A DNA stretch of 64,000 nucleotides, from the NCBI RefSeq assembly GCF_017307055.1, contig NZ_JAFLEQ010000003.1, positions 181,747 to 245,746 of the forward strand, written 5' to 3'. The translations under genes were made by a program, and so were the position numbers. This stretch comes from Corynebacterium mendelii (GTDB lineage Bacteria > Actinomycetota > Actinomycetes > Mycobacteriales > Mycobacteriaceae). Below are positions 14,473-34,035 of the stretch, in pieces. Under the pieces are notes generated by a model. It saw only the letters and a list, made by a program, of their open reading frames with translations. It was not told the DNA's origin and did not search any database. Position 1 is the first letter of the stretch. Every line of letters starts with the position of its first letter.

Positions 14473-14486
14473 TATAGTGGGGCGGG
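14473..14486 (+). promoter_or_regulatory. Leaderless promoter of tex
   Basis: TATAGT (14473-14478) is 7 nt upstream of GTG 14486, and no ribosome-binding site precedes the codon. This spacing places the transcription start at the GTG itself, which also decides the start codon. Confidence 0.6.
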
Positions 14487-16819: not shown

Positions 16820-16867
16820 CCAGCCCGGAAAAAGCGGTGCAGCAACCGGCGGTGGCACACCGGTTGA

Positions 16868-16914
16868 AAACAACCCGCGGACCCATCTTTTTTAAGGTCC
16901 GCGGGTTGTTTGCG
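16868..16914 (+). terminator. Terminator of tex
   Basis: A 16-bp perfect stem (16868-16883 with 16896-16911) with a 12-nt loop; the 3' arm ends TTGTTTG. It marks the left boundary of the accessory island. Confidence 0.75.
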
Positions 16915-17196: not shown

Positions 17197-18066
17197 ATGA
17201 CCATCTGTGACGACCAGCTCGACTGGATTGAAGCCGAGGGCTACCACCTGGCATTGGACGGCAGCGAGATTGTCTGCCGCAATGCCAAGGGCACGAAGCT
17301 TAAAACCGTGCCGGCGAAAGCCCGCAAGACCGGGCAGTACCAGGAGCTTCTCGCCACCCGGGATTTTCTTGACCAGCACACCGACCAATGCAAATCCACT
17401 GTGTTGGCCTGGTTTTTGGCAGGGGAGGAAATACCGGTCGTATTACTCGGACAGGTGTGGACGGATCCGGCGTGGCGGCACTGGCTTGAGGATTTGGTGG
17501 TGTGCAGCAGCGGCACAGTCGGCCTGCTCAAAGGTGCGGATGAGAACAATCTGCACCTGGTTGATCTTGACGGCGAAAGCGTGACTGTCACCGTCACTGA
17601 TACGGCAGTTGCCACGATTCCCCACCCGGCAGGCATGGTGGATATCGACGATTGGCGGGAATTCGCCGTTGAACTCGGCGTGCACCAGAACCTTGACCAG
17701 CTGCTGCGGGAAATCCATCCCAAACCGGCCGATGAGAAAACCCAGCGGGAAGCAGTCCGGGCCTATGACGGGGGCGTCTATGAGCAGGCCTCCCACTTGT
17801 TGGGGCGGGGCAGGGGCGGCGGATTCAAAACCAGCCTGCAGGAAATCAGTGTCACCGTCACCGAAAACGGGGTCAACACCACAGCCGTTTTGGACGTCAC
17901 AGCCTGGTCCCCGGAAGACGAAGCAACACTGGGCACTCTGGGCTTTACCCGTTCCGGGCGCACGGTGGCACTCGCCGATGTCGGCCCGGTCGCCTGGTCG
18001 GAGGGCATCCGCATGGCCGAATACATCTACTCCGCCCGCACCAAGGAAAAAGACACCAAAAACTAG
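17197..18066 (+). CDS. Short DUF4132-like protein
   Basis: 289 residues with a good ribosome-binding site. It resembles the C-terminal part of DUF4132 proteins (E. coli YehI/MolR, over 1200 residues): LDWIEAEGYHLALDGSEI and RNAKGTKLKTVP at the start, then the helical block YQELLATRDFLDQHTDQ, the 'W..lv' block VWTDPAWRHWLEDLVV, and ATIPHPAGMVDIDDWREFAVELG. This last matches the family's 'v.iaHPlhl....W...f.d' pattern. WGR and N-terminal helical regions are absent, so this is a free-standing C-terminal module. The biochemical role is unknown. It is the first gene of the MoxR/VWA island, 123 nt before the 1552-residue gene. Assignment rests on pattern memory. Confidence 0.65.
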   Translation: MTICDDQLDWIEAEGYHLALDGSEIVCRNAKGTKLKTVPAKARKTGQYQELLATRDFLDQHTDQCKSTVLAWFLAGEEIPVVLLGQVWTDPAWRHWLEDLVVCSSGTVGLLKGADENNLHLVDLDGESVTVTVTDTAVATIPHPAGMVDIDDWREFAVELGVHQNLDQLLREIHPKPADEKTQREAVRAYDGGVYEQASHLLGRGRGGGFKTSLQEISVTVTENGVNTTAVLDVTAWSPEDEATLGTLGFTRSGRTVALADVGPVAWSEGIRMAEYIYSARTKEKDTKN

Positions 18067-18189
18067 CGTCTGCAACGACTTTTCAGCACCAGTTTTCCAC
18101 CACCCCTGTCGGCCGGATTCCCCGGCAGGCCCGCCACCGGCAGGTGTGTATCCCCGGGCGGGAACAACAACAACCGATTGGACCACCAC

Positions 18190-21100
18190 ATGACTGCGCC
18201 GACGACCCCCAGTGCCGCGGAGAAACTGCGTGCCGGACATACCCTGCCGCCGGGCCACCCCCTTGATCCGGGTACCAAAGCCGTGGTGTTGATGGCGGTG
18301 ACCTATACCTCCGGTACCCGAACCATGGTGCGCCTGGTGCCCGAGCCGCTGATCCAGGCCGAAGACATTGCCATGAAAACCCTGGGATACACCAACCACA
18401 AGGTCACACCCGTCGGCCGCACCCGTCCGGTGGCCGTGGGTTTTCCCGCCTGGCCGATTCTGGTGGATCCGGGAAACGCCCGCCACGCCCTGAATCTGGT
18501 GGGGGATGTGCAGTGGGCGAAAAGAGCGGTGAATTCCCGCGCCAAGGATGTCAAAGACCGTTTCGACACCCTGGCCGCTGAACTGGGTAAATCGGCCCCG
18601 CATTTTGTGCCGCCGCTTCTGGAGGAAGTGGCCCGTCTGTTCCACGGGGTCGGCAACCAGCAGTTTGCCAAACAGTTTTTCGGCAAAGCCCGGGAAGCCG
18701 AGCGTGCCTACAACATCGATATTGATCCGGTCCGTCACCGGGCGGCCTTCACCGAATTCGCGGCCCTGGGTGTTGCCGGTGCCCGGGAGTTGACCGCGGA
18801 AGCCACGGCCTGCCTGGAGCGTTTCGATGATCCGAAAGACGCCCTCGACTATTTCATTGAACTCAACACCGACCGGATCACCGCCGGGCAGCCGCCGTAT
18901 GCGTACTTGGCCCGGGATACCCGCAAAATCGGCAAAGCCGCGGGGTTGACACCCGCCGAAGCCGATGCCCTGCTGTTCGAGCACATTATCGGCCTGGCAG
19001 CTGTGCGCCGTGCACCGGCCGGGTTTTTCAAAGCCGTCGGAAAATCCCTGGCCCACTGGGCGAGAAAACATCCGGACGCCCAGGAATGGTTGTGTGACGA
19101 CAGGCCCGCCGAAATGGAGGTCGAAGACTACTTCCAGCTGCTCATTGATGCCGGGGTGACGAAAGAGACCGACAAAGACCACACCACAACCCGCGACCTG
19201 CTGTTGCGGCTGTGCGGATATTTGGAAACAGACTGGCAGTCGGTGCGCCCCGCCAACCTCATCGCCGCCATCGACAGCCACCATGACGCATTGAACGGGG
19301 TGGACTACCGGCCCAAAGCCATCAGGGGATTGAGCCTTGATCTGCTCGATGCGCTGGCCGCGGCAGGGGTTCAGTTCCCGGATGTTGATTCATCCGATAC
19401 CGACTACACCGCACGGTTGGGCACCTCCTGGGATGGGTGGCTTCAAGCAGGCAAACAACCGGACAACCGCAACCGTGATCTTATGGCACTGGCGGCCCAT
19501 CCCACGCTGTCTGTGCGGGCCGCCCACGATTTGAACGCGAATGCCATTGATGAACACCTGGACAGTTTGCTCGCGCACCCCGGATCCCGCGAGTTGCTGG
19601 CCCGGGCGCTGGATGTGATCGCGGGCGACCGTGCCACATGCACCGGCAGCATCAAAGAACTGGAAAAGTTCACCGACAACATCCTGCCCCACCTGAACGA
19701 TCCGCGGCTGACAGACGTCAACCCGGACGCGATGGAGAAAATCTTCGCCTTCGACCAGGTTGCGGAGGTTGCCTCCAGTCTGCGCACCGGTGTGGCCGCC
19801 GAATACACCTTCCCCGCACTGGAGGAAGCCGTAGCCTACGTCCGTGCCCGCCACCTGGAAGACACCGGCGACAATGCCGTGCCCGGAAACTGGGAACAGG
19901 ATCCGGTACAACTGCACGAATCATTCCCCAACCAGGCGGTGACCTGCGGCGACCACATTGCGGTGGTGACGCCGAAGAAAATGATTGCTACCGGCACGCT
20001 TCCGCGGGGAGTGGAAATGGTGGTCGGGGTGCGCACCGTCAAAGACCGGGTGCGGGTCAGCTACCGCGGCAGCAACGGGTATGTGGAGCACATCTACTGG
20101 CTGGGTGAGCAGGCCGCCCACAAAACCGACAACTATGTGTGGCATTCCAATGGCGGATCCTATTCCTACGAAATCGGGGCCGGTCGTGTGGTTGCCAATG
20201 GTCTTGTCGCCGACGGCGACACAGCAGACGACCGATGCGACTCGAATGTTCTGGTCACCCCAAACAGCATTATCGGTGTTCCCCACTGGGACCGTGCCCA
20301 TGCCAGGGTCTACGACCGGAAAACCGGTGAAAAAACCGGGGAAGTCAACCTTTACACTTGGCCTGCAACGCTGAAAAACCTGGGGGTTCCGGTCGATAAA
20401 CTCGATATGGACGGCCTTCCGGCATTCGACAGCCCGGAACAGTTCTACCGCGCCGGCGAAGACAGGGCACAATGCGACCTGGGATATGTGACCTGTATGC
20501 CGGTGACTGATCTGACAGCCGCTTCCCCCATGGGATCTGTCGGTGGCTGGCACCTGTCCTTCCCCGTCGATCAGGCGGGCGATAACTGCGTGGTCGGAGC
20601 TCTTGGTACGTTCCGCACCACCGGCAAAGGCCTGACGATCGGGGCGGCGATCGCGCGTCCCGGCGGGGGAGTGTGGCTGCACACCAGTGAAGGTCTCATT
20701 GATGCCGAGACGTTGAAACAGGTGCCCAGAACCCTGGAAGCCGACGGCCGGGAAAGCTTTCTGGATGGTCTTCTGATCAACCAGCTGCACTTTATTGCCC
20801 CCAGGGACGAAAACGTCAGCCGCCTGCTGCGCAGCGTGACCGCTGACACGGCCCGTGATTTGCTTGATCCCACCCGCAGTGAACAGCAACGCAAAGACCG
20901 GATCGGGAAGGTGTTTGCCACTGCCGACCCGGTGTTGATCGAAGCCATCGACGGCGTTGTGGTGCAGGTCAACCAGGTGCACGAAGAAATCAAAAAACAA
21001 CGCGCCACCCTGGATGCGGCCGTGGAGACCGACCACGGTGTACCGCAGCCCACAGAACAAGTCGAAGACCTGCTGGAACTGCTCGGCAACGGAAACACCA

Positions 21101-22848
21101 TCGATTACGGGCGCAAACTTGCCAAGCTCGTTGACGCCATCACCACCAACACGCTGTCCGACTACGAGCCGGAAGAGAACTTCAACCCCGGTTTCATGGG
21201 TTACGAGCAGGCCTTGCTGACGATTGCGGCATCCCCGCTTCTGGCCGAACCGGTGCGCAACGATTTTGTGGGGTTTGTCCGTGCCATCCATGCCCTGGGA
21301 GCAACCTGTACCGGCTGGCGGCGGGTGATCGCCCATTCACCGGACCAGGAAGCGGGAAACTGGCCGCGGAAAGGATTCCACGACGGGGTTTTGGTGTGGG
21401 GCTGCGACTGGAATTGGCGCGACGGATCCCGGCACGAAGAACGCCATCTTCTCGCCCCTGTCGCTTTGACCCGGTGGCAGTCGGTGGCGCTGCCGCAGGC
21501 GACAGACACAACCCTTGACAAAGACACCTTCACCGTCGCACTGGAAGCAATCGAGACAGCCCGCACCGCCACTTCGACAGCAGAAAATGAACCGGCTGAG
21601 GCGTCCGGTGCCCAGGCCGTGGTGGCCGCGAACCTGGAGAAATCACTGGAGGAAATCTCGCAGGCCACGGTTTTCCCGGTCTCTGCGCTGCGCTACCTGT
21701 TCGGTGCCTATGTGGGCCGCCACAGCTGGCAGCACAGTTTCCTAAGTAAAGAGCAGCGGGAACTGCTCGGTTTCACGGTGGCGGAAGCCGCGGCAGCGAA
21801 AAGCCTCATGCAGCAGCTCACCCCCGACGAAGTCCGGGAGTTGTTGGCGGCTGCCTTCAACCCGGCAAGGCCGGCGGATATTGCGGTTGGCCACCTCAAC
21901 ACCGCGCGGGTGATCGCCACCGCCAACCGGCTGATGGGTGAGCCGAAGGTTCGCCTGTCAGCTGAAGAATGGAGCCGCCAGATCGCAGTCGAAGGCACCA
22001 GCTACTGGTGCAGCTGTATTGGCAGTGTGCTGCACGGCGAGTCGATTGCGGAGGAAAGCCGCAACTACACCGGTAATCATCCGCGGGACGAGTACCTGTC
22101 GTTGATTGTTCGTCTGGCTGCCGAATGCCGCCTGGATCCGGATAGTGCCGCCTGGCTTGCAGGACAGCTGCAGGCAGCGAAAGACCATGTATTCTCCCAG
22201 CCGGAGGAGCTGCGGAAAAAGTGGGACGCGGAAGTTCCCATCCCGAGTCCTTTCGACAACGCCGAGAAATACGTCGATGAAAAACAGGTGCCGAATGTGT
22301 GCCGCATGATTGCCGCCGGGTGGGCTGATGGGTTGATCCAGTGGTTGCGTACGTCGCAGTTCCCGGCGGCGGGGAATCGTTTTGATCCGGTTGTCAGTGT
22401 GCCGGGGTTGGTGGAAGAGGTTTCCAAAGTTAAGGGTGTTTCTTCTGCTGCGGCGCGCTATTACCTGCAGCTTCTGGCTTTGCAGTTCCCGTCGGACAAG
22501 ATCGTTCGGGAGTTGAATGGGTGGAAGAAGAGGGATATTGATCAGGCTGCGGGGGAGTTGGTTGCTGCTGGTGTGGTGGTTGAGGGCAGTCGGAAGGGTG
22601 CCGGGCGGAAGGTGTTTTTGCCGGGTGGTTGGTTGGAGGCGTCTGCGCCGAATAAGCCGATGGAGGTGTGGAAGGCGCCGCATTATCTGTTGTGGGAGGA
22701 TACGCGGGTGAAAGCGGTGGTGAAGGGGTGTCCGCCGTTGGTGCCTGCACACGAGTTGTTTGCTGATGTGTGGCAGCGGATTGTTGATGGTGATCAGCCG
22801 GGGTATGAGGAGTTGCGGACCAGCCAGTACCGCCGGAAACGCCGGTAA
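18190..22848 (+). CDS. Very large helical protein with C-terminal winged-helix-like domain
   Basis: 1552 residues from ATG 18190 (a TTG four codons earlier is less likely). No signal peptide or membrane span. Mostly predicted helices, with no recognised nucleotide-binding motif. The N-terminal ~300 residues contain many short acidic/basic helices (FFGKAREAERAYNIDIDP, LLFEHIIGLAAVRRAP). A central region (about 560-900) is richer in strands. The C-terminal segment (about 1415-1490) looks like a winged helix: SAAARYYLQLLALQFPSD, LNGWKKRDIDQAAGELVAAG, GAGRKVFLPGGWLEA. Large 'DNA-binding' proteins of this type occur beside MoxR/DUF5682/VWA/SWIM clusters in other actinobacteria, as I recall. Codon usage changes sharply near 22310, with G/T-ending codons replacing C/A-ending ones, so the C-terminal ~180 codons may have a different origin. 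Confidence 0.6.
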   Translation: MTAPTTPSAAEKLRAGHTLPPGHPLDPGTKAVVLMAVTYTSGTRTMVRLVPEPLIQAEDIAMKTLGYTNHKVTPVGRTRPVAVGFPAWPILVDPGNARHALNLVGDVQWAKRAVNSRAKDVKDRFDTLAAELGKSAPHFVPPLLEEVARLFHGVGNQQFAKQFFGKAREAERAYNIDIDPVRHRAAFTEFAALGVAGARELTAEATACLERFDDPKDALDYFIELNTDRITAGQPPYAYLARDTRKIGKAAGLTPAEADALLFEHIIGLAAVRRAPAGFFKAVGKSLAHWARKHPDAQEWLCDDRPAEMEVEDYFQLLIDAGVTKETDKDHTTTRDLLLRLCGYLETDWQSVRPANLIAAIDSHHDALNGVDYRPKAIRGLSLDLLDALAAAGVQFPDVDSSDTDYTARLGTSWDGWLQAGKQPDNRNRDLMALAAHPTLSVRAAHDLNANAIDEHLDSLLAHPGSRELLARALDVIAGDRATCTGSIKELEKFTDNILPHLNDPRLTDVNPDAMEKIFAFDQVAEVASSLRTGVAAEYTFPALEEAVAYVRARHLEDTGDNAVPGNWEQDPVQLHESFPNQAVTCGDHIAVVTPKKMIATGTLPRGVEMVVGVRTVKDRVRVSYRGSNGYVEHIYWLGEQAAHKTDNYVWHSNGGSYSYEIGAGRVVANGLVADGDTADDRCDSNVLVTPNSIIGVPHWDRAHARVYDRKTGEKTGEVNLYTWPATLKNLGVPVDKLDMDGLPAFDSPEQFYRAGEDRAQCDLGYVTCMPVTDLTAASPMGSVGGWHLSFPVDQAGDNCVVGALGTFRTTGKGLTIGAAIARPGGGVWLHTSEGLIDAETLKQVPRTLEADGRESFLDGLLINQLHFIAPRDENVSRLLRSVTADTARDLLDPTRSEQQRKDRIGKVFATADPVLIEAIDGVVVQVNQVHEEIKKQRATLDAAVETDHGVPQPTEQVEDLLELLGNGNTIDYGRKLAKLVDAITTNTLSDYEPEENFNPGFMGYEQALLTIAASPLLAEPVRNDFVGFVRAIHALGATCTGWRRVIAHSPDQEAGNWPRKGFHDGVLVWGCDWNWRDGSRHEERHLLAPVALTRWQSVALPQATDTTLDKDTFTVALEAIETARTATSTAENEPAEASGAQAVVAANLEKSLEEISQATVFPVSALRYLFGAYVGRHSWQHSFLSKEQRELLGFTVAEAAAAKSLMQQLTPDEVRELLAAAFNPARPADIAVGHLNTARVIATANRLMGEPKVRLSAEEWSRQIAVEGTSYWCSCIGSVLHGESIAEESRNYTGNHPRDEYLSLIVRLAAECRLDPDSAAWLAGQLQAAKDHVFSQPEELRKKWDAEVPIPSPFDNAEKYVDEKQVPNVCRMIAAGWADGLIQWLRTSQFPAAGNRFDPVVSVPGLVEEVSKVKGVSSAAARYYLQLLALQFPSDKIVRELNGWKKRDIDQAAGELVAAGVVVEGSRKGAGRKVFLPGGWLEASAPNKPMEVWKAPHYLLWEDTRVKAVVKGCPPLVPAHELFADVWQRIVDGDQPGYEELRTSQYRRKRR

Positions 22849-22866
22849 GCATCCTGCCGCGGGCTG

Positions 22867-22872
22867 TAGTAT
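22867..22872 (+). promoter_or_regulatory. Possible -10 box between the large gene and the membrane-protein gene
   Basis: TAGTAT shortly after the large gene's stop. Transcription from it would begin near 22880; the nearest ATG (22882) is in a non-coding frame, so the membrane protein would start further down at 22962 or 22977. Confidence 0.35.
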
Positions 22873-22961
22873 TGGAGCGCAATGGCCACACCATGCAACT
22901 CCCCGCCCCTGCAGTCCCACGGGCGGTCCCGGCCTGACCGCATCCCGGTGGTGGTTGCCCG

Positions 22962-24128
22962 GTGTGCCTGTCGGCAATGCTGGGCCTCGTTTTCTCCCCG
23001 GACACGATTGCCGGCGTTTATGTGCGCGGGCTTACTGCAGGCCACGTCACCGACAGCAGCCCGCGAAACAATCTTGCGGCGGAGTCCGGCCGCAACGAGC
23101 GGCCGGAACCATCCGATGTCGGCTACCCCGGGGAAGTGGCCGGCGGCAACCACAACAGCAGTGATGGTGCAACCGGTGACGGTGCCTACCGGGAGGCCAC
23201 CGGCCAGCCCGAAGCCGACGGCGATAACCCGGTGCCCGGGATTCCCTTTGACCCTTCCGGGAAGCAGCAGGCGGATTCGGCTGAAGAAGGAGCAATTCCG
23301 GCGCCACCTCTGGGGGATGAACAGTTGCGGATATCCTCCGAGTCACTGTTCGGGGAGTCGGATGCCGCCGACGCTGCAGCAGTACCCGGAATACACACCC
23401 CGCCGACTGTCGGTGACAGGACTGATACCCGTAAACAATGTCCGGTGGACGGCTCCGGCAGCGGGCAGCCGGATGTTTTCTACTTCGGCAGTTTTGATGC
23501 TGCAACCGGTGACGGTTACCTGCCGCCGGATGTCCGTGACACCGGCACCTCCGGCGACGGTGATACTGCGGCTATGTGGGGTGCTGCGGGCATGGCCCTG
23601 GCGATGTCGGCTATGTGGGGTGCAACCGTGGTCAGCAGAAAACGCCGGGGTGCCCGCACGACGGAGGGGCCTGCGGCTGCATCAGACGGTTTGCCGCCGC
23701 AGGCGTCGGTGTTGCCGGTCAATGGTGTGGTCGGCCGGTTGGTCTCGTATCTGCGCAAGGACGAACAGCTCAAGCGCGAAGCTGAACGGATGTACAACGA
23801 AATCATGGAGGAACGTGTCGCGGCCTGGGACAGCAACCCGGCCCACATTGCTGTTGACAAGGGGCTCGACGACATCGACGACAAAGACATCGACGATGGC
23901 TTCGACGACGATTTTGAGATCATCCACCTTACCGGGCACACCCCGTGTGAGATGCGGGATACCACCACCGACACCGTCTCCTACGACACCGGTGACACCT
24001 ATCCGGCCGGCGGCCACCCGTCACGGGGTGCCCGAGGACTGTTGTCCCGGTTGATCGGCGGCCGCACCGACGATGACCCGGTCGAGCGGTACCGCAGGGA
24101 ACACGGCCCGGGCGGGTCACGTCTGTGA
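22962..24128 (+). CDS. Single-span acidic membrane protein of the MoxR/VWA island
   Basis: 388 residues from GTG 22962; ATG 22977 is the other candidate. The frame is chosen for its acidic, Gly/Asp-rich composition; the +1 frame over the same bases gives an Arg/Pro/Ser-rich shadow. The N-terminus is mildly hydrophobic (MLGLVFSPDTIAGVYV), possibly a signal sequence. Then come a Gly/Asp/Pro-rich region to about 200, one membrane span (about 204-222, AGMALAMSAMWGATVV) followed by basic SRKRRGAR (stop-transfer), and a cytoplasmic tail. The tail has a helical segment (LRKDEQLKREAERMYNEIMEE) and a very acidic patch (GLDDIDDKDIDDGFDDDFE). No known domain. It sits between the large protein and the MoxR ATPase and could anchor the system at the membrane. 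Confidence 0.6.
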   Translation: MCLSAMLGLVFSPDTIAGVYVRGLTAGHVTDSSPRNNLAAESGRNERPEPSDVGYPGEVAGGNHNSSDGATGDGAYREATGQPEADGDNPVPGIPFDPSGKQQADSAEEGAIPAPPLGDEQLRISSESLFGESDAADAAAVPGIHTPPTVGDRTDTRKQCPVDGSGSGQPDVFYFGSFDAATGDGYLPPDVRDTGTSGDGDTAAMWGAAGMALAMSAMWGATVVSRKRRGARTTEGPAAASDGLPPQASVLPVNGVVGRLVSYLRKDEQLKREAERMYNEIMEERVAAWDSNPAHIAVDKGLDDIDDKDIDDGFDDDFEIIHLTGHTPCEMRDTTTDTVSYDTGDTYPAGGHPSRGARGLLSRLIGGRTDDDPVERYRREHGPGGSRL

Positions 24129-24328
24129 CTCACGGTCAGCTGCGGCACCGCCGGGGGACAGCCGTTTTCTTCCCGGCCCCACCCGCGTCAGGCACATGGC
24201 CGCGCCGATCGTGGCACCATGGACTGACCACGCCGCCCGCCAGTGCACCCACCGGCGGGCAGGCCGCGGTTTTCTTGTTTTGTTATCCGCCACCGGTTTT
24301 TCCACCAGACAGACAGGGCACCACCGAT

Positions 24329-25498
24329 ATGGCCGACACCACCGCCACCCAAGTTCAGGCCGCGGAAGAACGCTTCGCCGATGAGCTGGCGTTTCTTGCC
24401 GTCCAGGACACCGGTCCCAGGCCGCCCGGATGGGCGATGACCCCGCGGGCGGTGGTGGATTTCATCTGTGGTGTGCAGGGGCTGCGACTGGACAAAGCCG
24501 CCGCTGCCAAGCACCCGGATCTGCCGGCGCGCAGGGACATCAGCCCGAAATTCATCGGTGACAAGGCCATTGTGCAGCGCTGCGTGGTCACCCTGGCCGG
24601 CGCCAGGGCGCTGCTGCTCACCGGGGAGCCGGGAACCGCCAAATCGATGCTGTCCGAACTGTTGGCGGCGGCTATTTCCGGCACCAGTGCTTTCGTGGTG
24701 CAGGGATCGGCGGGAACCACCGAAGACCAGCTGCGCTACGGGTGGAACTACGCGCAGCTCCTGGCCGAGGGTCCCTCACCCCAGGCGCTGGTTCCCTCCG
24801 CGGTGATGGCGGCGATGCGGAAGGGAACAATCGTCCGTGTCGAAGAGATCACCCGCATGCTGCCCGAAATCCAGGACGCACTGGTGCCGGTGCTGTCCGA
24901 GAGGAGAATCTCGGTTGCCGAACTCGGTGACGAAACCGTCTACGCACGGGAGGGGTTCAGTGTCATTGCCACGGCGAACCTGCGGGACAAAGGGGTCAGT
25001 GACATGTCGGCTGCCCTGAAACGGCGCTTCAACTTCGAACGCATCGACCCGATCGCCGACCGGGATGCCGAGCGCCGGCTGGTTGCCCGCGCCACCCGGC
25101 AGGCGCTGGACAAAGCTGCGGTGCATGTGCCGGTCGACACCCGGGTCGTCGACACCCTGGTGACAATATTCAGGGATTTACGCCGTGGCATCACCGACGA
25201 AGGGTGGCCGGTCGACAAGCCCTCCACCACCATGTCGACGGCCGAAGCGGTGGCGATCTCCTCGTCGCTGGCCTTTGACGGTGTCTATTTCCCGTCCGGA
25301 AAAGACCCGGTGGCCGATATTCCCGGCCATATTGCCGGCGCGGTACGCACCAACGACGACAAAGACACCGCCCGCCTGGCCGCCTACTTCGACACGGTCG
25401 TCAAACGCCGGGCGGAACAAAACCAGTCCGGCGCAACCGGCGACACCGCCGATCCGTGGACGGTGTTGTGGCAGGCCCGCACCGACATCGTCCGCTGA
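24329..25498 (+). CDS. MoxR-family AAA+ ATPase (YehL-like)
   Basis: 389 residues from ATG 24329. AAA+ motifs: Walker A GEPGTAKS (99-106), Walker B region TIVRVEEITRMLPE (about 167-180) in which the usual Asp-Glu reads Glu-Glu, sensor 1 IATANLRDKG (213-222), and an arginine-finger segment ALKRRFNFERI (229-239). MoxR proteins are ring ATPases that remodel or activate client proteins, usually together with a VWA partner. The downstream gene, 5 nt away, carries a VWA domain. The 'EE' form is, from memory, shared with YehL-type members of this branch, so it need not mean loss of ATPase activity. The pair recalls the ChlI/ChlD logic of Mg chelatase, but no chelatase substrate genes are nearby. Confidence 0.88.
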   Translation: MADTTATQVQAAEERFADELAFLAVQDTGPRPPGWAMTPRAVVDFICGVQGLRLDKAAAAKHPDLPARRDISPKFIGDKAIVQRCVVTLAGARALLLTGEPGTAKSMLSELLAAAISGTSAFVVQGSAGTTEDQLRYGWNYAQLLAEGPSPQALVPSAVMAAMRKGTIVRVEEITRMLPEIQDALVPVLSERRISVAELGDETVYAREGFSVIATANLRDKGVSDMSAALKRRFNFERIDPIADRDAERRLVARATRQALDKAAVHVPVDTRVVDTLVTIFRDLRRGITDEGWPVDKPSTTMSTAEAVAISSSLAFDGVYFPSGKDPVADIPGHIAGAVRTNDDKDTARLAAYFDTVVKRRAEQNQSGATGDTADPWTVLWQARTDIVR

Positions 25499-25503
25499 CC
25501 CCC

Positions 25504-28500
25504 ATGGCTTGCCCGCACCCCTTCCACGCCGCCGGTGGTCCCGCTGCCGCCGCGAGCTTCGGCAACGATGGTGACTGGACGGATCTGCTGGAGCAGATGA
25601 CCGACACCGGCGGTGACAGTGTGCTGTTCGGTATCCGGCACCATTCCCCGGCCTGCGCCCGCGCGGTGGTGCAGGCAGCCGAACACCTTTGCCCCCGGGC
25701 TGTCGCCGTGGAAATGCCCTCCGATCTGGCCGATTATGTCACCTGGCTGGTGCATCCGGACACCCGGGCACCGGTGGCGGTGGCCGCAGCCACCGACGGG
25801 GGAGCAGGTGGTTTCTATCCTTTCGCCGACTTTTCCCCGGAACTGGCGATCTGCCGGTGGGCGCACGCCAACCGGGTGCCGGTGGAATTCATCGATCTTC
25901 CCGTCGGCCTGCGCCACGCCGTCGACACGGATCCGGACGCATCTGCGGCTTCCACCGACGCGGGGAAACAATCCACTTCTTGTGCGGCGGCGGGTTTTTC
26001 TTCGCTGATCGGCCAGGAAGCCTGGGACACCAGTGTTGAAGCCCCGTCGGTGGGGTGCACCTGGCAGCAGATCAGGCGGGCCGCGCTGGCTGTGGGGATA
26101 GCCGCCAGGTATGCCGAGACACACGACGGCACCCCTGCCGATGCAGTGACCCGGGCCCGTGAAGCCTGGATGGCCCGCAGACTGCAGCAGTTGACCGGCA
26201 CTTCGGCGACGCCATCTTCCGCCGGTCCGGTGCTGGTGGTGGTCGGTGCCTACCACTGTGCCGCCCTTGTTCCCGGTGGATGCGGTGACACCGCCCCCGG
26301 GCGCGAAGAAGAACTCTTTTCCCTCGTGCCCCAGCCGGTCACGGTGTCGGTGGTGCGCTACAGCTTCGAACGGCTCGACACCCGCTCCGGGTACGCATCG
26401 GGTATCCGGGATCCGCACTACCACCAGGAACTGTTGACCAGGATCGCTGCTGCAGGTGATGACCAAAAAGCGCAGGCGGCGGCCGCCCAGGAGGTGGCCG
26501 GGGACATTCTCACCGATATTGCCCGTGGGCTGCGCAAAGAGGGCGAGCCCGCGGGAACCGGGGAGGTGGCCGAAGCCTTCCGGTTTGCCCGCGATCTGGC
26601 GCAGCTGCGGGGCCTGCCCGCCCCCGGCCGCCGCGAAATACTCGATGCGGCCACCACGGTGATGGCCCAGTCACAGGTCACCGGGCGGGGGAGGCTGGTT
26701 GCCCGGGCGGTGGCCGCCGCCATGGCCGGTGACCGGGTCGGCGACCTTCCCGCTGACTGCCCGGTTGCCGAACTGCAGAAACACACCCGCGGGCAGTTGG
26801 CTGCGCTGTCGTTGCCTTCCACCGAACAGCAGCCGCGGGCCAGCAAAAAGATCGCGCCTTTTTCCGGACCCACCGATTTGAAACGGCACCTGATTCTGGC
26901 GCGGCTGAAAGCCCTGGATGTTCCCTACTGGGAGGGCGGGAGCGGAACCACCCGCGGCATGGACAACCGGTCGTACACCATCGACTGCCGTTTCACCCCC
27001 ATGACCGCGGCGGAACTGGACCGGCACGCCGCAGCCGGGGTGACACTGGAACAAGCCGCCGACACCGTTCTGGTGTCCCGTCTGAACCGGGCGGCGGGTT
27101 CCCCGGAAGGCCCCGACCCGGAAGTGGTGACCGGTATCGTCGACCGGGCGGCCGCCTGTGCCGCCCCGCAGGCACTGTCGCAGGCCATTGATCTGCTGGA
27201 ACAGGAGATCGCCGTGCAACTGGGCTTCCGGGCTGCGGTATCGGCCATGCAGGTGCTGGCCGGAATTGCCGGCGGCAGGCAACCGGCGGCCGCTTGCCTG
27301 CCGGAACAGTTGCTGCAACGCTGCGACCGGATGGTCGATGAACTCGCCCGGACCGTGGTGGGGGCCATCGACGGGGTGAAAGGCTCCGCAAAGATCGCTG
27401 ATGCGCGGTTGCTCGGGACTCTGGCCGGGTTGAGTGGGCGGCTGGGACTGGCTGTCGGCCACGCCCTGGCCGATGTCATCGCCACCGGTTCGGCACTGAT
27501 GGCCGGTGCCGCCTGCGCCGTGGACTCCCTTCTGGAAGAGCGGGACGCCCCCGCCTTCGAAGACAGGGCGGACACCACCGGCACCGGTTCCCCGAGCGGA
27601 ACCGGTGCCGGTGGGCACGGTGTGCAGACCGGCCGGTGGGATGCACTGTGCACCCGCACCGGGGCACTGGTGGACCGGCTGGCCGTGGCAGAAACCAGGG
27701 TGGCCGCCCGGGACTGGCTGACCGGTTTTCTGGCGGCACTGGGGCCGGTGTGGAGCGACCACCCCGGCCTGGACGGTCTGATAGCCAGGGTCAGCGGCAT
27801 CAGTGACGGAGCCTTCATTGCGGCGCTGCCGGGGCTGCGGGCGGTATTCGACACCGTCGCCCCCGGCGAGCGGGAGCGTTTCCTCGACCGGCTGGCACAA
27901 GACATCGGCCGCATCGACCAACCGGAAATTGCCCCGGAGATTCTCATTGCCACCGCCACCGCCGACCAGGAGGCGAAAAAACGGCTGGAAGCGTTGGGAT
28001 TGCTCGACCTGTCGTTTGACCCGTCAACCAGGTGGCGGCTGGTATTGGGGGCTGATCCGGAACAACTGTCCGGCACCGGCTGGCAGATGGCCGAAACCCT
28101 GGACGAGTTGTACGGCGGCACCGGCGACGACCGGACCGGGGAAGCGCAGGGGCGGGTGCGGGCGGCGGGCTCAGGGCCCGGAAGTCTGGCGGTGCGCCGG
28201 TGGAAAAACCAGATTGAGGTTCTCTTCGGCCCCGACCGGGTCGACGACATCCTCGGGGTGGCAGCCGAACGCGGGAGGGCCGATGCGGCACTCGAATTGA
28301 ATGCGGAGACCGCCCGGCCGTCGGTGGGACTTTTGACCACCCTGCTGAACCTGAAAGGGGCCCTGCCGGAATCAACCGTGGCACGGATCAGGCCGCTGAT
28401 CGCCCGCGTGGTGGATGAACTGGCCAGGGCCCTGGCCACCACGATGCGGCCGGCCCTGACCGGCATCGGTTCCGCACGCCGCAGCCTGCGGCCGGCCGGG

Positions 28501-29115
28501 CGGCTGGATTTGCCGGCCACCATCCGCAAAAACTTAAGCCATGTGGTCTCGATTGACGGGCGCGTCCAAATCGTTCCGGTTAACCCGGTGTTTTGCACCC
28601 CGGTGAAACAATCTTCCGAATGGCACATCATCGTCGCGGTGGACGTGTCCGGCTCCATGGAGGCCTCCACGGTGTACGCGGCCATGACCGCGGCGATTTT
28701 GAGCGCCGTCGACTGCCTGCGGGTGGAACTGTTCACCTTCGACACAGACATCATCGACATGACCGGCACCGTCGACGACCCGTTGGCCACACTGCTGGAA
28801 ATCAAGGTCGGCGGTGGCACGGACATCGCCAAAGCCATGGCCTACGCCCTGTCCCGGGTGACGGTTCCGGCGAAAACAATGGTGGTGCTGGTCACCGATT
28901 TCGAGGAATCCGGTTCCGCGCACCGGCTGGTCGGGACAATTAGGGAGATGACCGAACGCGGTATCACCACCATCGGCTGCGCGGCCCTCGACGACACCGG
29001 CCTGGCCGCCCACAACGCCGGGGTGGCGCAGCTGTGTGCCGGGGCCGGCATGCACACCGCCAGCCTGTCGCCGCTGGCGCTCGGCCGGTGGATAGCGCAG
29101 GTGGTCAACCGGTGA
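25504..29115 (+). CDS. DUF5682 - VWA fusion protein
   Basis: 1203 residues from ATG 25504, 5 nt after the MoxR stop. N-terminal DUF5682: DSVLFGIRHHSPACARAVV (39-57) followed by AVAVEMPSDL, the family hallmark. This pattern recalls TraB/TIKI-type metal-dependent enzymes ('GT.H...s..' then 'VE'), an inference only. The middle (about 450-1000) is a long Ala/Leu-rich helical region with a Ser/Gly/Thr-rich linker near 690-710. The C-terminal VWA domain has an intact metal (MIDAS) site: DVSGSM at 1047-1052, Thr1106 in GGGTDIAK, Asp1132 in LVTDFEES. In E. coli the corresponding parts are separate proteins (YehM, YehP), so this is a natural fusion linking the two. It overlaps the next gene by 4 nt. 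Confidence 0.85.
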   Translation: MACPHPFHAAGGPAAAASFGNDGDWTDLLEQMTDTGGDSVLFGIRHHSPACARAVVQAAEHLCPRAVAVEMPSDLADYVTWLVHPDTRAPVAVAAATDGGAGGFYPFADFSPELAICRWAHANRVPVEFIDLPVGLRHAVDTDPDASAASTDAGKQSTSCAAAGFSSLIGQEAWDTSVEAPSVGCTWQQIRRAALAVGIAARYAETHDGTPADAVTRAREAWMARRLQQLTGTSATPSSAGPVLVVVGAYHCAALVPGGCGDTAPGREEELFSLVPQPVTVSVVRYSFERLDTRSGYASGIRDPHYHQELLTRIAAAGDDQKAQAAAAQEVAGDILTDIARGLRKEGEPAGTGEVAEAFRFARDLAQLRGLPAPGRREILDAATTVMAQSQVTGRGRLVARAVAAAMAGDRVGDLPADCPVAELQKHTRGQLAALSLPSTEQQPRASKKIAPFSGPTDLKRHLILARLKALDVPYWEGGSGTTRGMDNRSYTIDCRFTPMTAAELDRHAAAGVTLEQAADTVLVSRLNRAAGSPEGPDPEVVTGIVDRAAACAAPQALSQAIDLLEQEIAVQLGFRAAVSAMQVLAGIAGGRQPAAACLPEQLLQRCDRMVDELARTVVGAIDGVKGSAKIADARLLGTLAGLSGRLGLAVGHALADVIATGSALMAGAACAVDSLLEERDAPAFEDRADTTGTGSPSGTGAGGHGVQTGRWDALCTRTGALVDRLAVAETRVAARDWLTGFLAALGPVWSDHPGLDGLIARVSGISDGAFIAALPGLRAVFDTVAPGERERFLDRLAQDIGRIDQPEIAPEILIATATADQEAKKRLEALGLLDLSFDPSTRWRLVLGADPEQLSGTGWQMAETLDELYGGTGDDRTGEAQGRVRAAGSGPGSLAVRRWKNQIEVLFGPDRVDDILGVAAERGRADAALELNAETARPSVGLLTTLLNLKGALPESTVARIRPLIARVVDELARALATTMRPALTGIGSARRSLRPAGRLDLPATIRKNLSHVVSIDGRVQIVPVNPVFCTPVKQSSEWHIIVAVDVSGSMEASTVYAAMTAAILSAVDCLRVELFTFDTDIIDMTGTVDDPLATLLEIKVGGGTDIAKAMAYALSRVTVPAKTMVVLVTDFEESGSAHRLVGTIREMTERGITTIGCAALDDTGLAAHNAGVAQLCAGAGMHTASLSPLALGRWIAQVVNR

Positions 29116-30731
29116 GCACCCTTCCCCCCATCGACCCCGGCTATGCCGGTGAGCTTCTGTCCGGTCTTCCGCGCCGACTGTCCACCCGCGCCGGGAAACT
29201 GGCCGAAACCCACTCCGACTGGGCGGTGGCAGCGCAGCCCGGCGGCACCACCATCACCATCGGCACCGCCACGGTTACCGTCACCGGGCCCGACCAGGTG
29301 GTCTGTGACTGTCTGCTCAGCCCGAGGTGCGCCCACTGCGGGGCGGTGTGTGTGGCCGCACCCCCGGCTGCGGGCACACCAGAGGGCACAGAAGATGCAG
29401 CGTCTACCGGCCGCAGCGGCGGGGATGACGGCCGCGGGGGTGCCGCCGGTCCTGCGCCCGTCGCGGCGGCCCGGGTGAACACCCGGCAGGTTCTGGACAC
29501 CGTCGACGAGATTGAACGGGTGCTCCAGGCCGTCATCGCCCACGGAATCACCGGCACCGGGGCGAGGGGACACGCCAGACTGCTCGCTGTCCTGCAAAAA
29601 GCCCGGGTGGCCGGACTGCACCGGGCGGAACGGCAGATCACCGCTGTGGTGTCGGCTTCGGCTGATCTGTTGGCCGCCCGTCCGGTCGGCCGGGCCGCCA
29701 CCGCCGAAGCCGCCGCGGAGCTGGCGTTGACGGCCCATCTTCTGCGCCGCGACCCGACCGACATCATGGCCGTGGGCCGGGCCAGACGGCAGTATCTTCC
29801 GCTGGACACCACCAGCGGGGCGGCAACCGGGGTGTTGACGGCACTGTTTGCTGAACCTGTGATCACCGGCTCCGGATTCGCCGGGGTGGTCGTTGTGTGC
29901 GCCAGTGACGAGGGCGCCCTGCTGAGCATCACAAAAACCCCGCCCGGGACAGCGGCCGATGTGCCCGGTATTTTCGCCGGACCCGTCCGGTTGGGGGACA
30001 TGCACTGCTCGCACTCCGACATCGCCCGGGCAACAGTGCTGATCACCGGGGCGACAGCATCCAGCGACGGCCGTTTGGGGCAGGGTGCAGGCGTGCATGC
30101 CGCTCTCGGGCGCACCACCGGCAAAGACACGGTGACAGCGGCCGTGCGCGGACTGGACCCGGCCTGTGGCATCGGTGTGGTCGCCGGCACCCTCACCGGA
30201 GCATCCGTCGGCGGGATCACCGTGGATGACGGTGGCCGGGAGATTGTTCTCGGCATCGCCAAGCCCGCCCGCCAGTTGGGGGTGGCGGGACTTGCCGCCC
30301 TGGTCAATTGCCACCTGGGGGAACCGGTGACCGCCCTTGTCCGCGACGGTGAGCTTGTGGCCTTGTGGCCCGATACCCCCTGGCCGGATCTTGACGACAG
30401 TTTCAAAGGCAGAATCTTCCCCGGCCTCGATCAACCGTTACCGCGGGAATCCACCGGGCCGCCCACCGGTGGCGGCACCGCCGGCGACGGGCAACCGGCG
30501 CCCCTCAAGCGGGCGGACAGTTCGGTGGGCCAGATTCTCGACCTGTGGTGCCAGCGCCTGGTTTTCGGCGGGAAAAGCCTGGTGGACGCCTGCAGACAGG
30601 ACAAAGACGCCGACATTTCCAGGCTGCGGGCCCTGGCCGCGCCGACCGCCGCGGAGCTTCTGGAGCAGCTGGCCGCCGCGGCCGACTGCCGGGTTCTGGC
30701 GGCGGTGGCCGCCTACCACCTGAAGGACTGA
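29112..30731 (+). CDS. SWIM zinc-finger protein (YehQ-like)
   Basis: 539 residues; GTG 29112 overlaps the preceding TGA (GTGA), implying translational coupling. The SWIM finger CxCx5CxH is exact: Cys65, Cys67, Cys73, His75 in VVCDCLLSPRCAHCG. SWIM domains bind zinc and mediate DNA or protein contacts. Downstream is a Gly-rich linker, a helical region with LDTVDEIERVLQAVIAHGITG, and a strand-rich half with repeated 'G-A-x-x-G' segments. No other known domain. The two extra Cys residues at 76 and 80 are a possible second metal site. Last gene of the six-gene set. A SWIM protein also accompanies MoxR, DUF5682 and VWA in the E. coli yeh cluster, which supports one functional unit. Confidence 0.85.
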   Translation: MSTLPPIDPGYAGELLSGLPRRLSTRAGKLAETHSDWAVAAQPGGTTITIGTATVTVTGPDQVVCDCLLSPRCAHCGAVCVAAPPAAGTPEGTEDAASTGRSGGDDGRGGAAGPAPVAAARVNTRQVLDTVDEIERVLQAVIAHGITGTGARGHARLLAVLQKARVAGLHRAERQITAVVSASADLLAARPVGRAATAEAAAELALTAHLLRRDPTDIMAVGRARRQYLPLDTTSGAATGVLTALFAEPVITGSGFAGVVVVCASDEGALLSITKTPPGTAADVPGIFAGPVRLGDMHCSHSDIARATVLITGATASSDGRLGQGAGVHAALGRTTGKDTVTAAVRGLDPACGIGVVAGTLTGASVGGITVDDGGREIVLGIAKPARQLGVAGLAALVNCHLGEPVTALVRDGELVALWPDTPWPDLDDSFKGRIFPGLDQPLPRESTGPPTGGGTAGDGQPAPLKRADSSVGQILDLWCQRLVFGGKSLVDACRQDKDADISRLRALAAPTAAELLEQLAAAADCRVLAAVAAYHLKD

Positions 30732-31126: not shown

Positions 31127-31139
31127 TATTATGGGCGTA
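31127..31139 (+). promoter_or_regulatory. Leaderless promoter of rloA
   Basis: TATTAT (31127-31132) is followed after six bases by ATG 31139. There is no ribosome-binding site, so the transcript probably begins at the ATG. Confidence 0.6.
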
Positions 31140-32488
31140 TGATCCTGCTGTCGTTTACGGTGCGCAACCACAAAAGCATCCGGGATGAGGTTACTCTTGA
31201 CCTTACGAGTCCGTCCCTGCGGACTCTGCAACCCTCCGATGGTGACTGGGAGAAAGTGTCGTACCCGATCACGGGGATTTTTGGCGCCAACGCGAGCGGA
31301 AAGTCGGCACTTCTTGATGCCATTCTCTACATGTTTTCCGCAATTCGCTTTTCAGCGACAGTGTGGCAGGACGGAAAGGGCGTGTATCGGGCGCCATTTG
31401 CTCTCGATGGCACTGCCGAAACATCCTCCAGTTTCTACGAAATCGACTTCGTCTTTGCAAATCACCGCTTCTGCTATGGATTTGAGGTTGATCGCAAAGG
31501 TATTGCACGGGAGTGGCTCAAAGATATTCCCACCACCCGGTGGCGAACTCTGTTTCACCGTGACCGTGAACAAGAGACTTTCAAGTTCCATTCCACCGTC
31601 AAGTCCACCAGTGAGGTCACCGACCGGGAATTGGTGCTCAGCCGTGCCCTGCTGCTGAAGCGCGGTAAATCCGTTTTGGGGGCTGTCGCCAGAGAGCTTG
31701 TCGAAGCTTTCGACTGTGTTCTGGTCACAGATTCCTACCGTGCGCACAGGGTCGCAGGCATCATCGAGGATCTTGTCGAGAACAATATGACGTTCGGTGA
31801 CCTGCAGATGCTGTTGGAAATCGCAGACATTGGCGTCGAGGGAATAACCGTTGAGCAATCAGATGTCCCGGAAGAAGTCCGACGGCTTTTGAGGATTCTC
31901 GATCGGGAACTTGGCGGTTCGGCGACGCCTTCAGACACGCTGGACGAGGATACTCCTGGAGGGGGAACTGGCATTGACACGGACGAAAAGCACCGGGAGC
32001 AAGTGGCTCGCCGCTTGATGCTGACCCACAGAGGCTCAGTAAAACAGTGTCCGCCGTTCAGGATAGAACAAGAAAGCGACGGCACGATCGCCTGGCTGGC
32101 ACTGTCTGTTCCGGTTCTCGAAGCGCTGCGGAGCGGTGGTCTGGTCATCGTTGATGAAATCGACGCCAGTATTCACCCACATCTGTTGGAGTTGGTCCTG
32201 GGGGCCTTTGCTGACCCTGAAATCAACCGCAAACATGCGCAATTGATTTTCAGTACCCATGAGTCCTTCGTGCTGTCACCCATGTGTGAGGTGAAGCTGC
32301 AGCCGGAGCAGGTGTGGTTTACCGACAAGGCGGTTGATGGAGCTACGGAGCTGACCTGTTTGGCGGATTTTCCCCGACATCCCGACGCCAATGTGGCGCG
32401 CCGTTACCTCGCCGGCAGATACGGGGGAACACCACGGTTGGCGCCCAGCATGTTGTTGGCGCTTGTCGATTCTTCGCTTGATCAATAA
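31139..32488 (+). CDS. rloA: RloA/AbiLi-like AAA ATPase
   Basis: 449 residues. AAA_15/ABC-type ATPase of the class found in abortive-infection and anticodon-nuclease-like loci: N-terminal ILLSFTVRNHKSIRDEVTLD, Walker A GANASGKS (49-56), a signature-like motif QESDGTIAWL (311-320), Walker B GLVIVDEIDASIHPHLL (334-350), and H-loop IFSTHESFVLS. The middle region (about 60-300) is the usual variable insertion. The partner gene 10 nt downstream encodes RloB, the same pair as Campylobacter rloA/rloB and lactococcal AbiL (AbiLi/AbiLii), reported as phage resistance. Predicted as the ATP-dependent sensor or regulator of the RloB effector. Lower GC and more even codon use than its neighbours suggest horizontal transfer. 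Confidence 0.82.
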   Translation: MILLSFTVRNHKSIRDEVTLDLTSPSLRTLQPSDGDWEKVSYPITGIFGANASGKSALLDAILYMFSAIRFSATVWQDGKGVYRAPFALDGTAETSSSFYEIDFVFANHRFCYGFEVDRKGIAREWLKDIPTTRWRTLFHRDREQETFKFHSTVKSTSEVTDRELVLSRALLLKRGKSVLGAVARELVEAFDCVLVTDSYRAHRVAGIIEDLVENNMTFGDLQMLLEIADIGVEGITVEQSDVPEEVRRLLRILDRELGGSATPSDTLDEDTPGGGTGIDTDEKHREQVARRLMLTHRGSVKQCPPFRIEQESDGTIAWLALSVPVLEALRSGGLVIVDEIDASIHPHLLELVLGAFADPEINRKHAQLIFSTHESFVLSPMCEVKLQPEQVWFTDKAVDGATELTCLADFPRHPDANVARRYLAGRYGGTPRLAPSMLLALVDSSLDQ

Positions 32489-32498
32489 GGGAGCACTC

Positions 32499-33122
32499 GT
32501 GGGTCGTAAAAAAGGTGAAGGGCGCAGACGTAAACGTGGCAGTCGGCGACGGCCCGCCAGGGCGGAACGGCGTCGCATCCTCGTTGTCACCGAGGGGTTG
32601 CGCACTGAGAAGCAATATGTGGAGCGCCTCAACGGTTTTCTTCGTAGTCGGGGCAGTACGACTGTGGTGAGGTCGGTCGGCGTTGGCAAAGACCCCCTGA
32701 AGGTGGTTGAGGAATGCATCATCATCCGGCAGCAGGCAGCTGCCTGTGGCGATGAGAAAAAGTTTGATGAATGTGTCTGTCTGGTTGATGTGGACAAGCA
32801 CTCTACAATGGCCCAAGCGATCCGGTTGGCCCGTGCAGAGTCCATTCAGTTGATCGTTTCGAATCTCAAATTCGAAGTGTGGATCTGCTGGCATGCTGAC
32901 GACAGGTGTGGCCCCTTGTCGTCGAAGCAGTTGGATGCCCGGGTGAAAAAGCTGGGCCTGATGAGTGGCAAAGACCTTGCTTCCACGTTTCCGATTGACA
33001 AGGTGGCAACGGCATGCGCGATTGCCCGAAAAGCTGATGCCGGGTTGTCCGCCGGGAGGGTCGGCCCCGATCCGTCCACTGCGATGCCGGTGCTGGTGGA
33101 ATTGCTTACGGAGGAGAAGTAG
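32499..33122 (+). CDS. rloB: RloB/AbiLii-like protein
   Basis: 207 residues from GTG 32499 with AAGGGAG upstream. It has a very basic N-terminus (residues 1-26, many Arg/Lys). RloB features: RILVVTEGLRTEKQYVERL (27-45; Glu32 and Glu37 in a Toprim-like 'EGxxTE'), CLVDVDKH (94-101, acidic pair Asp97/Asp99), and SNLKFEVWICWH (121-132), the variant of the hallmark 'SNPxFExWLLxH'. The Toprim-like acidic residues suggest a metal-dependent nuclease, which would be the effector controlled by RloA; this is inference. It is translated from the same transcript as rloA. Ends 280 nt before rplS, the right border of the island. Confidence 0.85.
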   Translation: MGRKKGEGRRRKRGSRRRPARAERRRILVVTEGLRTEKQYVERLNGFLRSRGSTTVVRSVGVGKDPLKVVEECIIIRQQAAACGDEKKFDECVCLVDVDKHSTMAQAIRLARAESIQLIVSNLKFEVWICWHADDRCGPLSSKQLDARVKKLGLMSGKDLASTFPIDKVATACAIARKADAGLSAGRVGPDPSTAMPVLVELLTEEK

Positions 33123-33402
33123 GGGCTGTCGGTGGTAAAGAACCAAAACTTTCCGGTGCCGGTACGGTGCCGTCGCGGTGCTTGGCAGGCCGCGGATGGG
33201 AACTGTTTGCCTTGGCCGGGGTAGATTTGGCATACTACGCGGGTTGCCTACTCTGCTGTGTCCAACTCCGTCAAGGATTGGTCGCACTCTTGTGGAGCAC
33301 AGCAACCGTACTGGATACGAACCGGTAGAGCGCCCCGATACCCGTGGGAGAAGCCGCCAGGTTCCTCTTTCCCTCTGCAGAAACAGAAAGCTTGATATAG
33401 AC

Positions 33403-34020: not shown

Positions 34021-34035
34021 TAGCCTTGGCTGGCG
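34021..34035 (+). promoter_or_regulatory. Possible leaderless promoter of the first lepB
   Basis: TAGCCT (34021-34026) lies 8 nt before GTG 34035. The same arrangement, with similar flanking bases, precedes the second lepB, so the box was duplicated with the gene. Confidence 0.45.

Follow-up and report, generated by a model that had tools for sequence, protein, structure and literature searches.

Gene layout of the locus

We analyzed a 64,000-nucleotide (nt) stretch of the Corynebacterium mendelii genome (RefSeq assembly GCF_017307055.1, contig NZ_JAFLEQ010000003.1, positions 181,747 to 245,746 of the forward strand), hereafter called the window. In this 3.09-Mb genome, six co-directional open reading frames (ORFs) lie between tex and a block comprising an RloA/RloB pair and rplS. 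Five of them, encoding a small DUF4132 protein, a giant protein here designated P1556, a MoxR-type AAA+ ATPase, a DUF5682-VWA fusion, and a SWIM-type zinc-finger protein, belong to a set that recurs across actinobacteria and in which DUF4132 and P1556 form a separable, multiplying module. The six ORFs are as follows (lengths in amino acids [aa]; E, expect value of the family match):

17197..18066, + strand: small DUF4132 protein, 289 aa (PF13569, E 8e-22), heading the DUF4132-P1556 module
18190..22848, + strand: P1556, 1552 aa, ATG start at 18190, without a Pfam match
22962..24128, + strand: acidic single-span membrane ORF, outside the conserved set
24329..25498, + strand: MoxR-type AAA+ ATPase (AAA_5, E 7e-37), likely start ATG 24329
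25504..29115, + strand: DUF5682-VWA fusion, 1203 aa (PF18934, E 4e-103; PF05762 VWA_CoxE, E 1e-50)
29112..30731, + strand: SWIM-type zinc-finger protein, GTG start at 29112, with CxC-x5-CxH in the window protein

A first-pass annotation of the window had described these ORFs as a contiguous, co-directional six-gene set, and the ORFs and spacings that it gave were borne out, including the shared direction, the 5-nt gap between MoxR and DUF5682-VWA, and the 4-nt overlap between DUF5682-VWA and SWIM. Contiguity is looser than this wording implies, with spacers of 123 nt downstream of DUF4132, 113 nt downstream of P1556, and 200 nt between the membrane ORF and the likely MoxR start, which we place at 24329 rather than 24125 because of the conserved part of the protein and the ATG at that position. 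The G+C content is 60 to 61% in the DUF4132 and P1556 genes versus 66 to 70% from MoxR through DUF5682-VWA to SWIM.

A recurrent five-gene set

A genome scan returned at least 573 relatives of DUF5682-VWA, and the best 80 loci were kept, mostly from Streptomyces and other actinobacteria, plus single loci from a planctomycete, a deltaproteobacterium, and an unclassified source. Their parts were called by six-frame profile search, which found homologues of SWIM in 77, P1556 in 76, MoxR in 73, and DUF4132 in 70 of these best 80. The usual gene order is DUF4132, P1556, MoxR, DUF5682-VWA, SWIM, with variation in Corynebacterium; in locus L096, the P1556 frame closes 3 nt before the DUF5682-VWA frame opens. 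Some of the loci lacking one part are contig ends (L044, L120, L122), and L092 has neither P1556 nor DUF4132. The combination of MoxR, DUF5682-VWA, SWIM, DUF4132, and the large protein therefore recurs far beyond the window genome, and because of this recurrence the grouping exceeds chance.

Within the genus, the set is accessory rather than core: DUF5682-VWA homologues are present in 14 of 151 Corynebacterium genomes, 12 of the fused type and 2 of a split type (G091 and G098). The two split-type genomes (loci L036 and L037) carry separate DUF5682 and VWA genes like those of Escherichia coli, and G091 also has a YehI-like, 879-aa DUF4132 protein. The P1556 profile matched 18 of the 151 genomes, two of them weakly, comprising the 12 fused-type carriers and 6 others but neither split-type genome (12/12 carriers versus 6/139 others, Fisher p 1e-13).

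The same association was seen in a phylum sample of 296 genomes. Here, the DUF5682-VWA profile matched 32 genomes, of which 7 have the full-length fusion (G000, G164, G189, G273, G327, G348, and G359), 14 have strong split or partial matches (with G294 matching in the VWA half only), and 11 have weak matches to the VWA part and were not counted as carriers. P1556 was found in 7/7 fusion genomes versus 0/289 others, and thus in none of the 14 strong split or partial genomes. Fused DUF5682-VWA and P1556 are tightly linked. Five of the fused-type genomes (G273, G348, G327, G359, and G189) have a second strong VWA-half match elsewhere, so that split and fused types may coexist in them.

Among mobile replicons, matches were confined to 40 of 72,556 plasmid records and 1 of 50,697 phage records. 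The latter, MT835988.1, is a 14-kb "Bacteriophage sp." sequence from fecal samples with a DUF5682/VWA-like stretch in two pieces, and is perhaps a mislabeled bacterial contig.

Tandem arrays of P1556

At least two P1556 ORFs are present in 10 of the 12 Corynebacterium carriers. Genome G023 has four copies; G071 and G115 have three each; G035, G150, G142, and G139 have two each; and G024, whose contigs are broken, has two or more. The two other carriers, G000 and probably G040, have a single copy. P1556 pieces are also found in G119, a 53%-complete genome.

The most extensive expansion is in G026, where one DUF4132 gene is followed by 18 P1556 ORFs, 8 of them full-length, in 62.5 kb (2,301,464-2,363,920). 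The MoxR/DUF5682-VWA/SWIM core starts 3.5 kb beyond the array on the opposite strand. The whole array region is as follows:

G026:C1:2300600-2363920 (loci L158, L159, L168, and L169): P1556 array, with some short members that mostly span the central part of the protein

In the sister species G136, 13 P1556 ORFs or pieces, 4 of them full-length, lie on contig 17. Between these two genomes, the core proteins are 96.9 to 98.7% identical, RloA 94%, the array-head DUF4132 protein 90.6%, and RloB 90%. The arrays have diverged unevenly: 8 of the 18 G026 array ORFs have a best G136 partner at 73 to 97% identity (three full-length ones at 73, 75, and 95%), and for the other 10, five of them full-length, the best partner is at 52% or less. 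One short variant, spanning profile positions 280 to 865, is kept at 97%.

In three further genomes (G062, G088, and G120), DUF4132 and P1556 are found without a detected DUF5682-VWA. On account of the arrays, the extra copies, and these solitary pairs, DUF4132 plus one or more P1556 genes is a separable and multiplying module. An arrangement of this kind, with a constant core and tandem arrays of giant P1556 genes headed by a DUF4132 gene, could represent a MoxR-vWA-centered system with a genomic repertoire of swappable recognition subunits, a proposal that we put forward as a tentative one and regard as doubtful in this specific form.

Divergence and genomic position

P1556 is the least conserved component of the set. 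Over 68 complete loci, mean pairwise identity is 75.8% for MoxR, 58.7% for DUF5682-VWA, 56.0% for DUF4132, 46.1% for SWIM, and 40.3% for P1556, with the identities of the components correlating at r 0.94 to 0.97. On a quick tree of 89 DUF5682-VWA proteins, in which long branches and uneven composition were flagged, order labels changed 13 times, where 9 changes is the minimum and shuffled labels averaged 41; inheritance has thus been largely within orders.

The position of the set is not fixed. Among 40 Streptomyces loci picked from the best 80, every ordered pair showed a core alignment longer than 1 kb, versus 3.3% of pairs for the left flank and 2.6% for the right flank, and 26 of the 40 share a flank with at least one other locus in this comparison, which had no synteny control. 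Flanking proteins are shared in five pairs among 12 Corynebacterium loci, the window sharing only RloAB, with two loci.

In the window, the set is bordered by the following features:

14318-16819: tex, upstream of the set
31139..33122, + strand: RloA/RloB (AbiL-type) pair (PF13304, PF13707; PADLOC AbiLi E 2e-78, AbiLii E 3e-18)
from 33178: rplS, downstream of the set (RloA/RloB plus rplS block, 31139-33744)

Two S26 signal peptidase genes lie side by side after rplS (33780-34985 and 35009-35974). An inverted repeat with a T-run follows tex (16865-16905); it was recognized by eye and is unlisted in the terminator scan, and is probably a terminator separating the set from tex. The promoter and terminator scan of the locus gave no promoter-like site and terminator-like stems in excess.

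The location between tex and rplS had been taken as a hint of a defense role, and this hint proved weak. By coordinates compared by hand, the tex-rplS gap measures about 270 bp or less in 17 of 24 other Corynebacterium genomes and is larger in 7 (G018, G012, G019, G014, G001, G006, and G023; loci L124 to L130). Nine ORFs picked from these larger gaps are thiamine (ThiC and ThiG) and pantothenate genes, together with genes for a TetR regulator, an ABC-2 transporter, a sugar epimerase, and a glycosyltransferase, and none of the nine had a convincing PADLOC match. The RloA/RloB pair, which adjoins the set in the window and lies within about 5 kb of it in two sister species (L032 and L039) among 13 relatives' stretches examined, is probably a neighbor separate from the set.

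These data bear on the possibility that the set is an anti-phage or other conflict system, in which P1556 would sense invader molecules and MoxR-vWA would release a toxic DUF5682 hydrolase. The patchy distribution, the P1556 arrays, and the variable position agree with such a role, and published MoxR-vWA systems have been interpreted as conflict systems whose sensing module is variable, in the part of that report drawn on here (PMC7159879). RloB is also enriched in Corynebacterium carriers (7/12 versus 19/139 others, p 9e-4), a count that includes two matches below the family cutoff and two sister species and may reflect the carriers' larger genomes. However, PADLOC gave no match for the set beyond a weak one of mads_8 to MoxR (E 5e-4), and among 65 proteins flanking 10 Corynebacterium loci no PADLOC family occurred in more than two, the hits being mainly RloAB, helicase models, and single ones. 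The rarity of plasmid and phage carriage, the flanks that Streptomyces loci do share, the metabolic and transport genes in the larger tex-rplS gaps, and the near-core status of the E. coli relative (see below) also argue against a conflict function, and we consider it doubtful.

Alternatively, the set might belong to a general stress or DNA-damage machinery that remodels or degrades cell proteins after damage, the variation of P1556 tracking changing cellular targets. In E. coli, yehMPQ is near-core, matching 5300 of 5426 genomes (in 5259, the match covers 80% or more of the query), with 5318 of 5320 places chromosomal. In Deinococcus, according to the part of the source available, mitomycin C raises the DUF4132 protein DRA0166 and the WGR protein DR2173, a response controlled by DdrO/IrrE (PMC8533742), although these genes are not established here as adjoining MoxR/DUF5682. 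Nothing unusual stands out in the 25 of 52 Pfam families listed for the 65 flanking proteins in Corynebacterium, and the DUF5682-VWA tree, as described above, mostly follows taxonomy. In contrast, the accessory status of the fused type in Corynebacterium, together with tandem arrays and uneven divergence that would be unusual for a housekeeping stress protein, speaks against this role, which we likewise consider doubtful. Given the evidence against defense, the near-core status in E. coli, and the Deinococcus DNA-damage regulon, a stress role is as likely as defense.

Predicted anatomy of the proteins

In hhalign, the small DUF4132 protein aligns to E. coli YehI at residues 934 to 1139 (probability 77, E 2e-5). 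P1556 stands outside the families compared: none of 25 members matched Pfam at E 0.01, and the window member, the one compared, had no NCBIfam match. P1556 as a split-off part of YehI was also considered and is unsupported (hhalign E 0.21, with only 2 sequences on the YehI side).

An AlphaFold2 (AF2) model of P1556 residues 1 to 1060 (pLDDT 82.8) predicts a TPR/PCI-like helical solenoid at about 90 to 304, more helices to about 562, a beta-rich region at 574 to 838, and then helices. The best fold match of the solenoid is Get4 (Z 12.2, root mean square deviation [rmsd] 5.8 over 175 residues), a likeness that may reflect only a common arrangement. WD-repeat chains among the weak Foldseek rows for the modeled beta-rich region suggest a possible propeller. 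The C terminus of P1556 is conserved and looks winged-helix-like by eye; of five weak Pfam matches there, each in one of 12 members, two are of helix-turn-helix type (FaeA and HTH_67), and a comparison with Protein Data Bank (PDB) sequences gave nothing significant.

The MoxR and SWIM proteins have intact motifs. The Walker A pattern is present in 87/87 MoxR relatives. The usual Walker B ending is DE; 75 of the 87 have R[VI]EE in this context instead, the other 12 lacking the searched string, and a stricter Walker B pattern matches 23/87. The window SWIM protein has no Pfam match, the CxC...CxH motif having been recognized in the alignment, in which the C, C, C, and H residues are invariant across 22 members including YehQ; the pattern is found in 84/85 proteins.

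DUF5682-VWA comprises an alpha/beta domain (residues ~1 to 290), a helical middle, and a C-terminal VWA with a metal-ion-dependent adhesion site (MIDAS), and was modeled by AF2 with pLDDT 85.1 and pTM 0.71. The DUF5682 motif G[VI]RHH (GxRHH) is found in 94/95 relatives, the exception (L122) being cut at the N terminus, and a second GxxH also in 94/95 (exception, L106); the MIDAS pattern is intact in 92/92 fused proteins, and the 3 proteins without it are split-type DUF5682 with the VWA as a separate gene. Stricter patterns match fewer (GxRHH, 72/95; second GxxH, 85; E-x-P, 51; MIDAS, 88). An invariant glutamate (E41 in model numbering) occurs in 43/43 and 27/27 aligned rows, down to E. coli YehM. 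In the AF2 model, the His/Glu motifs sit at the ends of predicted strands 10-15, 37-43, and 214-219 or close by. On these motifs and their modeled placement, DUF5682 is probably a TIKI/TraB/Ere-like hydrolase.

The C-terminal VWA superimposes on solved VWA domains with Z 18.3 and rmsd 2.6 over 160 residues, and a fold search with the full model returned a list filled by VWA matches. The top fold hit, TROVE/Ro60 (E 2e-5, rmsd 15.8), spans the helices and the VWA and was not taken as homology. Searching DUF5682 against PDB sequences gave nothing convincing.

The VWA belongs to the CoxE family (PF05762), which would suit a cofactor- or metal-insertion chaperone of CoxDE/NorQD type serving one metalloenzyme, with DUF5682 as the substrate-binding arm. 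Iron insertion by NorQD works through a twist of the NorD linker (PMC13036017, in the portion available), and MolR was long ago associated with molybdate (a link cited in PMC8533742, likewise as far as available). Against this, no recurring metalloenzyme appears among the 25 of 52 Pfam families listed for the 65 flanking Corynebacterium proteins, and the P1556 arrays would be left unexplained. We consider such a chaperone improbable.

The acidic membrane ORF has coding-like G+C at its codon positions (0.68/0.54/0.71) and no match in Pfam, NCBIfam, or PADLOC; one marginal match (E 4e-4) was found in 150 other Corynebacterium genomes. By this comparison, it appears essentially restricted to the window genome and no part of the conserved set. 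The six-gene description accordingly stands for five genes, and the suggestion that the membrane protein tethers the set is rejected as far as a conserved part is concerned.

A constant core with a proposed variable recognition module

Slightly ahead of these alternatives, and still short of an even chance in our estimate, we favor a reading in which the set is an actinobacterial branch of the MoxR-vWA remodeling machines (NorQD/CoxDE type) with an enzyme-like DUF5682 domain and with DUF4132 plus P1556 as a variable recognition module. By family resemblance, MoxR would form the motor, into which the C-terminal vWA of DUF5682-VWA would dock as inferred from NorQD. By the same analogy, an ATP-driven twist would travel via the helical middle to the N-terminal DUF5682, the putative hydrolase with the two-His/Glu signature, which would be opened or metal-loaded on command. 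The SWIM and small DUF4132 proteins would be fixed accessory parts. P1556 would be the variable giant scaffold, with its solenoid and beta-rich region, probably recognizing a trigger or target and passing it to the machine. The DUF4132-P1556 module multiplies into tandem arrays whose members diverge, the core staying constant. The purpose would be either conflict or the handling of a changing cellular target.

Several observations weigh against this reading. Long arrays are known from G026 and G136 only, 10 of the 18 G026 members fall short of full length, and the missing partners of its array ORFs could be hidden by G136 contig ends. A second P1556 ORF was seen in the sampled stretch in just 4 of the 76 P1556-bearing loci of the 80, and both P1556 genome searches scored only the 2 to 3 best candidates per genome. 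The genomes with DUF4132 and P1556 and no detected DUF5682-VWA fit it poorly, as do four Streptomyces loci (L096, L112, L119, and L121) with the other four parts and no MoxR within the sampled stretch, where the motor may be dispensable or located elsewhere. The P1556 fold matches are middling, as any solenoid would give, and concern the modeled residues 1 to 1060. Finally, the hhalign similarity of the DUF5682 N terminus to Ere (P 0.16) and YbaP (P 0.0095) is not significant, although the motifs are in register; single control comparisons gave P 0.11 to 0.35, and the YbaP side was a single sequence, used alone because the phylum sample contained too few TraB members to build a profile (1/119).

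Our literature search, whose coverage excluded subscription papers and preprints and in which several result lists were seen in part, found no paper on the set. In the literature searched, DUF5682 is named in no paper and DUF4132 in few, and no paper combining three of the four terms molR, molybdate, yehI, and chlorate was found. The set is related to the uncharacterized E. coli Yeh set; what is new is P1556 as a family, together with its arrays. In the papers found, no function is described for this recurrent actinobacterial five-gene set, whose largest protein lies outside every curated family tried. The layout of constant core and variable array offers a handle on the function of Yeh-type proteins, including those encoded by the near-core genes of E. 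coli K-12. Should P1556 proteins indeed serve as recognition subunits, their arrays would amount to a new kind of bacterial recognition repertoire, a counterpart of receptor gene clusters.

Comparison with known systems

The closest comparison is with E. coli yehI-yehL-yehM-yehP-yehQ, where MoxR, DUF5682, VWA_CoxE, SWIM, and DUF4132 proteins are also clustered and are uncharacterized. The Yeh counterparts proposed at first pass stand for YehL (43% identity to MoxR, blastp E 2e-89), YehM (28% to DUF5682, E 1e-29), YehP (33% to the VWA, E 5e-55), and, for DUF4132, the C-terminal part of YehI; for SWIM and YehQ, the correspondence holds at the motif level only, the motif aligning without BLAST similarity. 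The E. coli system differs in that DUF5682 and VWA are two genes, DUF4132 is part of a 1210-aa protein, close to its end, and the WGR protein YehF is present, whereas none of the six window proteins had a WGR match. It is also near-core there and accessory in Corynebacterium, and similarity between P1556 and YehI was undetected.

DUF5682 resembles the TIKI/TraB/Ere hydrolases in having a pair of GxxH-type motifs together with a Glu close to strand ends, the second catalytic Glu being unassigned; TIKI enzymes are described, in the available part of the source, with 2His/2Glu (PMC6254334). It differs in showing no significant profile similarity to them and in its fusion to a helical region and a vWA.

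A further likeness is to conflict systems in which putative sensors, in a related kind of system, are diversified by diversity-generating retroelements, as far as the accessible text goes (PMC10907252). Here, in contrast, diversity accompanies tandem gene arrays, no search for retroelements having been made.

The MoxR-vWA-centric ternary systems (VMAP, iSTAND, FtsH, and beta-propeller types), as set out in the main text of PMC7159879, share with our set the MoxR motor, the vWA partner, and a large, variable further component; they are read there as conflict systems, and the variable nonenzymatic module as the sensor. As in those systems, the MoxR gene adjoins the vWA gene (AAA_5 plus VWA_CoxE). 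That main text contains no mention of SWIM, YehL, DUF4132, MolR, EreA, TIKI, or TraB, and the VMAP and iSTAND proteins described in it have variable C-terminal effectors, whereas here, in the aligned members, the vWA is C-terminal and the fused N-terminal DUF5682 is constant. The bpMoxR model scores 23.1 bits, under its 27-bit cutoff.

The NorQD, CoxDE, and RavA-ViaA pairs are not known to have DUF5682, SWIM, DUF4132, or P1556. What they share with the set is a MoxR protein with a vWA partner, and in NorD, from the portion of the report available, the vWA is linked to an N-terminal domain (PMC13036017). The clients of these pairs are, in the sources as far as available, respiratory or other enzyme complexes. 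In the NorQD structure determined by cryo-electron microscopy, as described in that same portion, a vWA finger sits inside the MoxR pore and ATP use twists the linker (PMC13036017).

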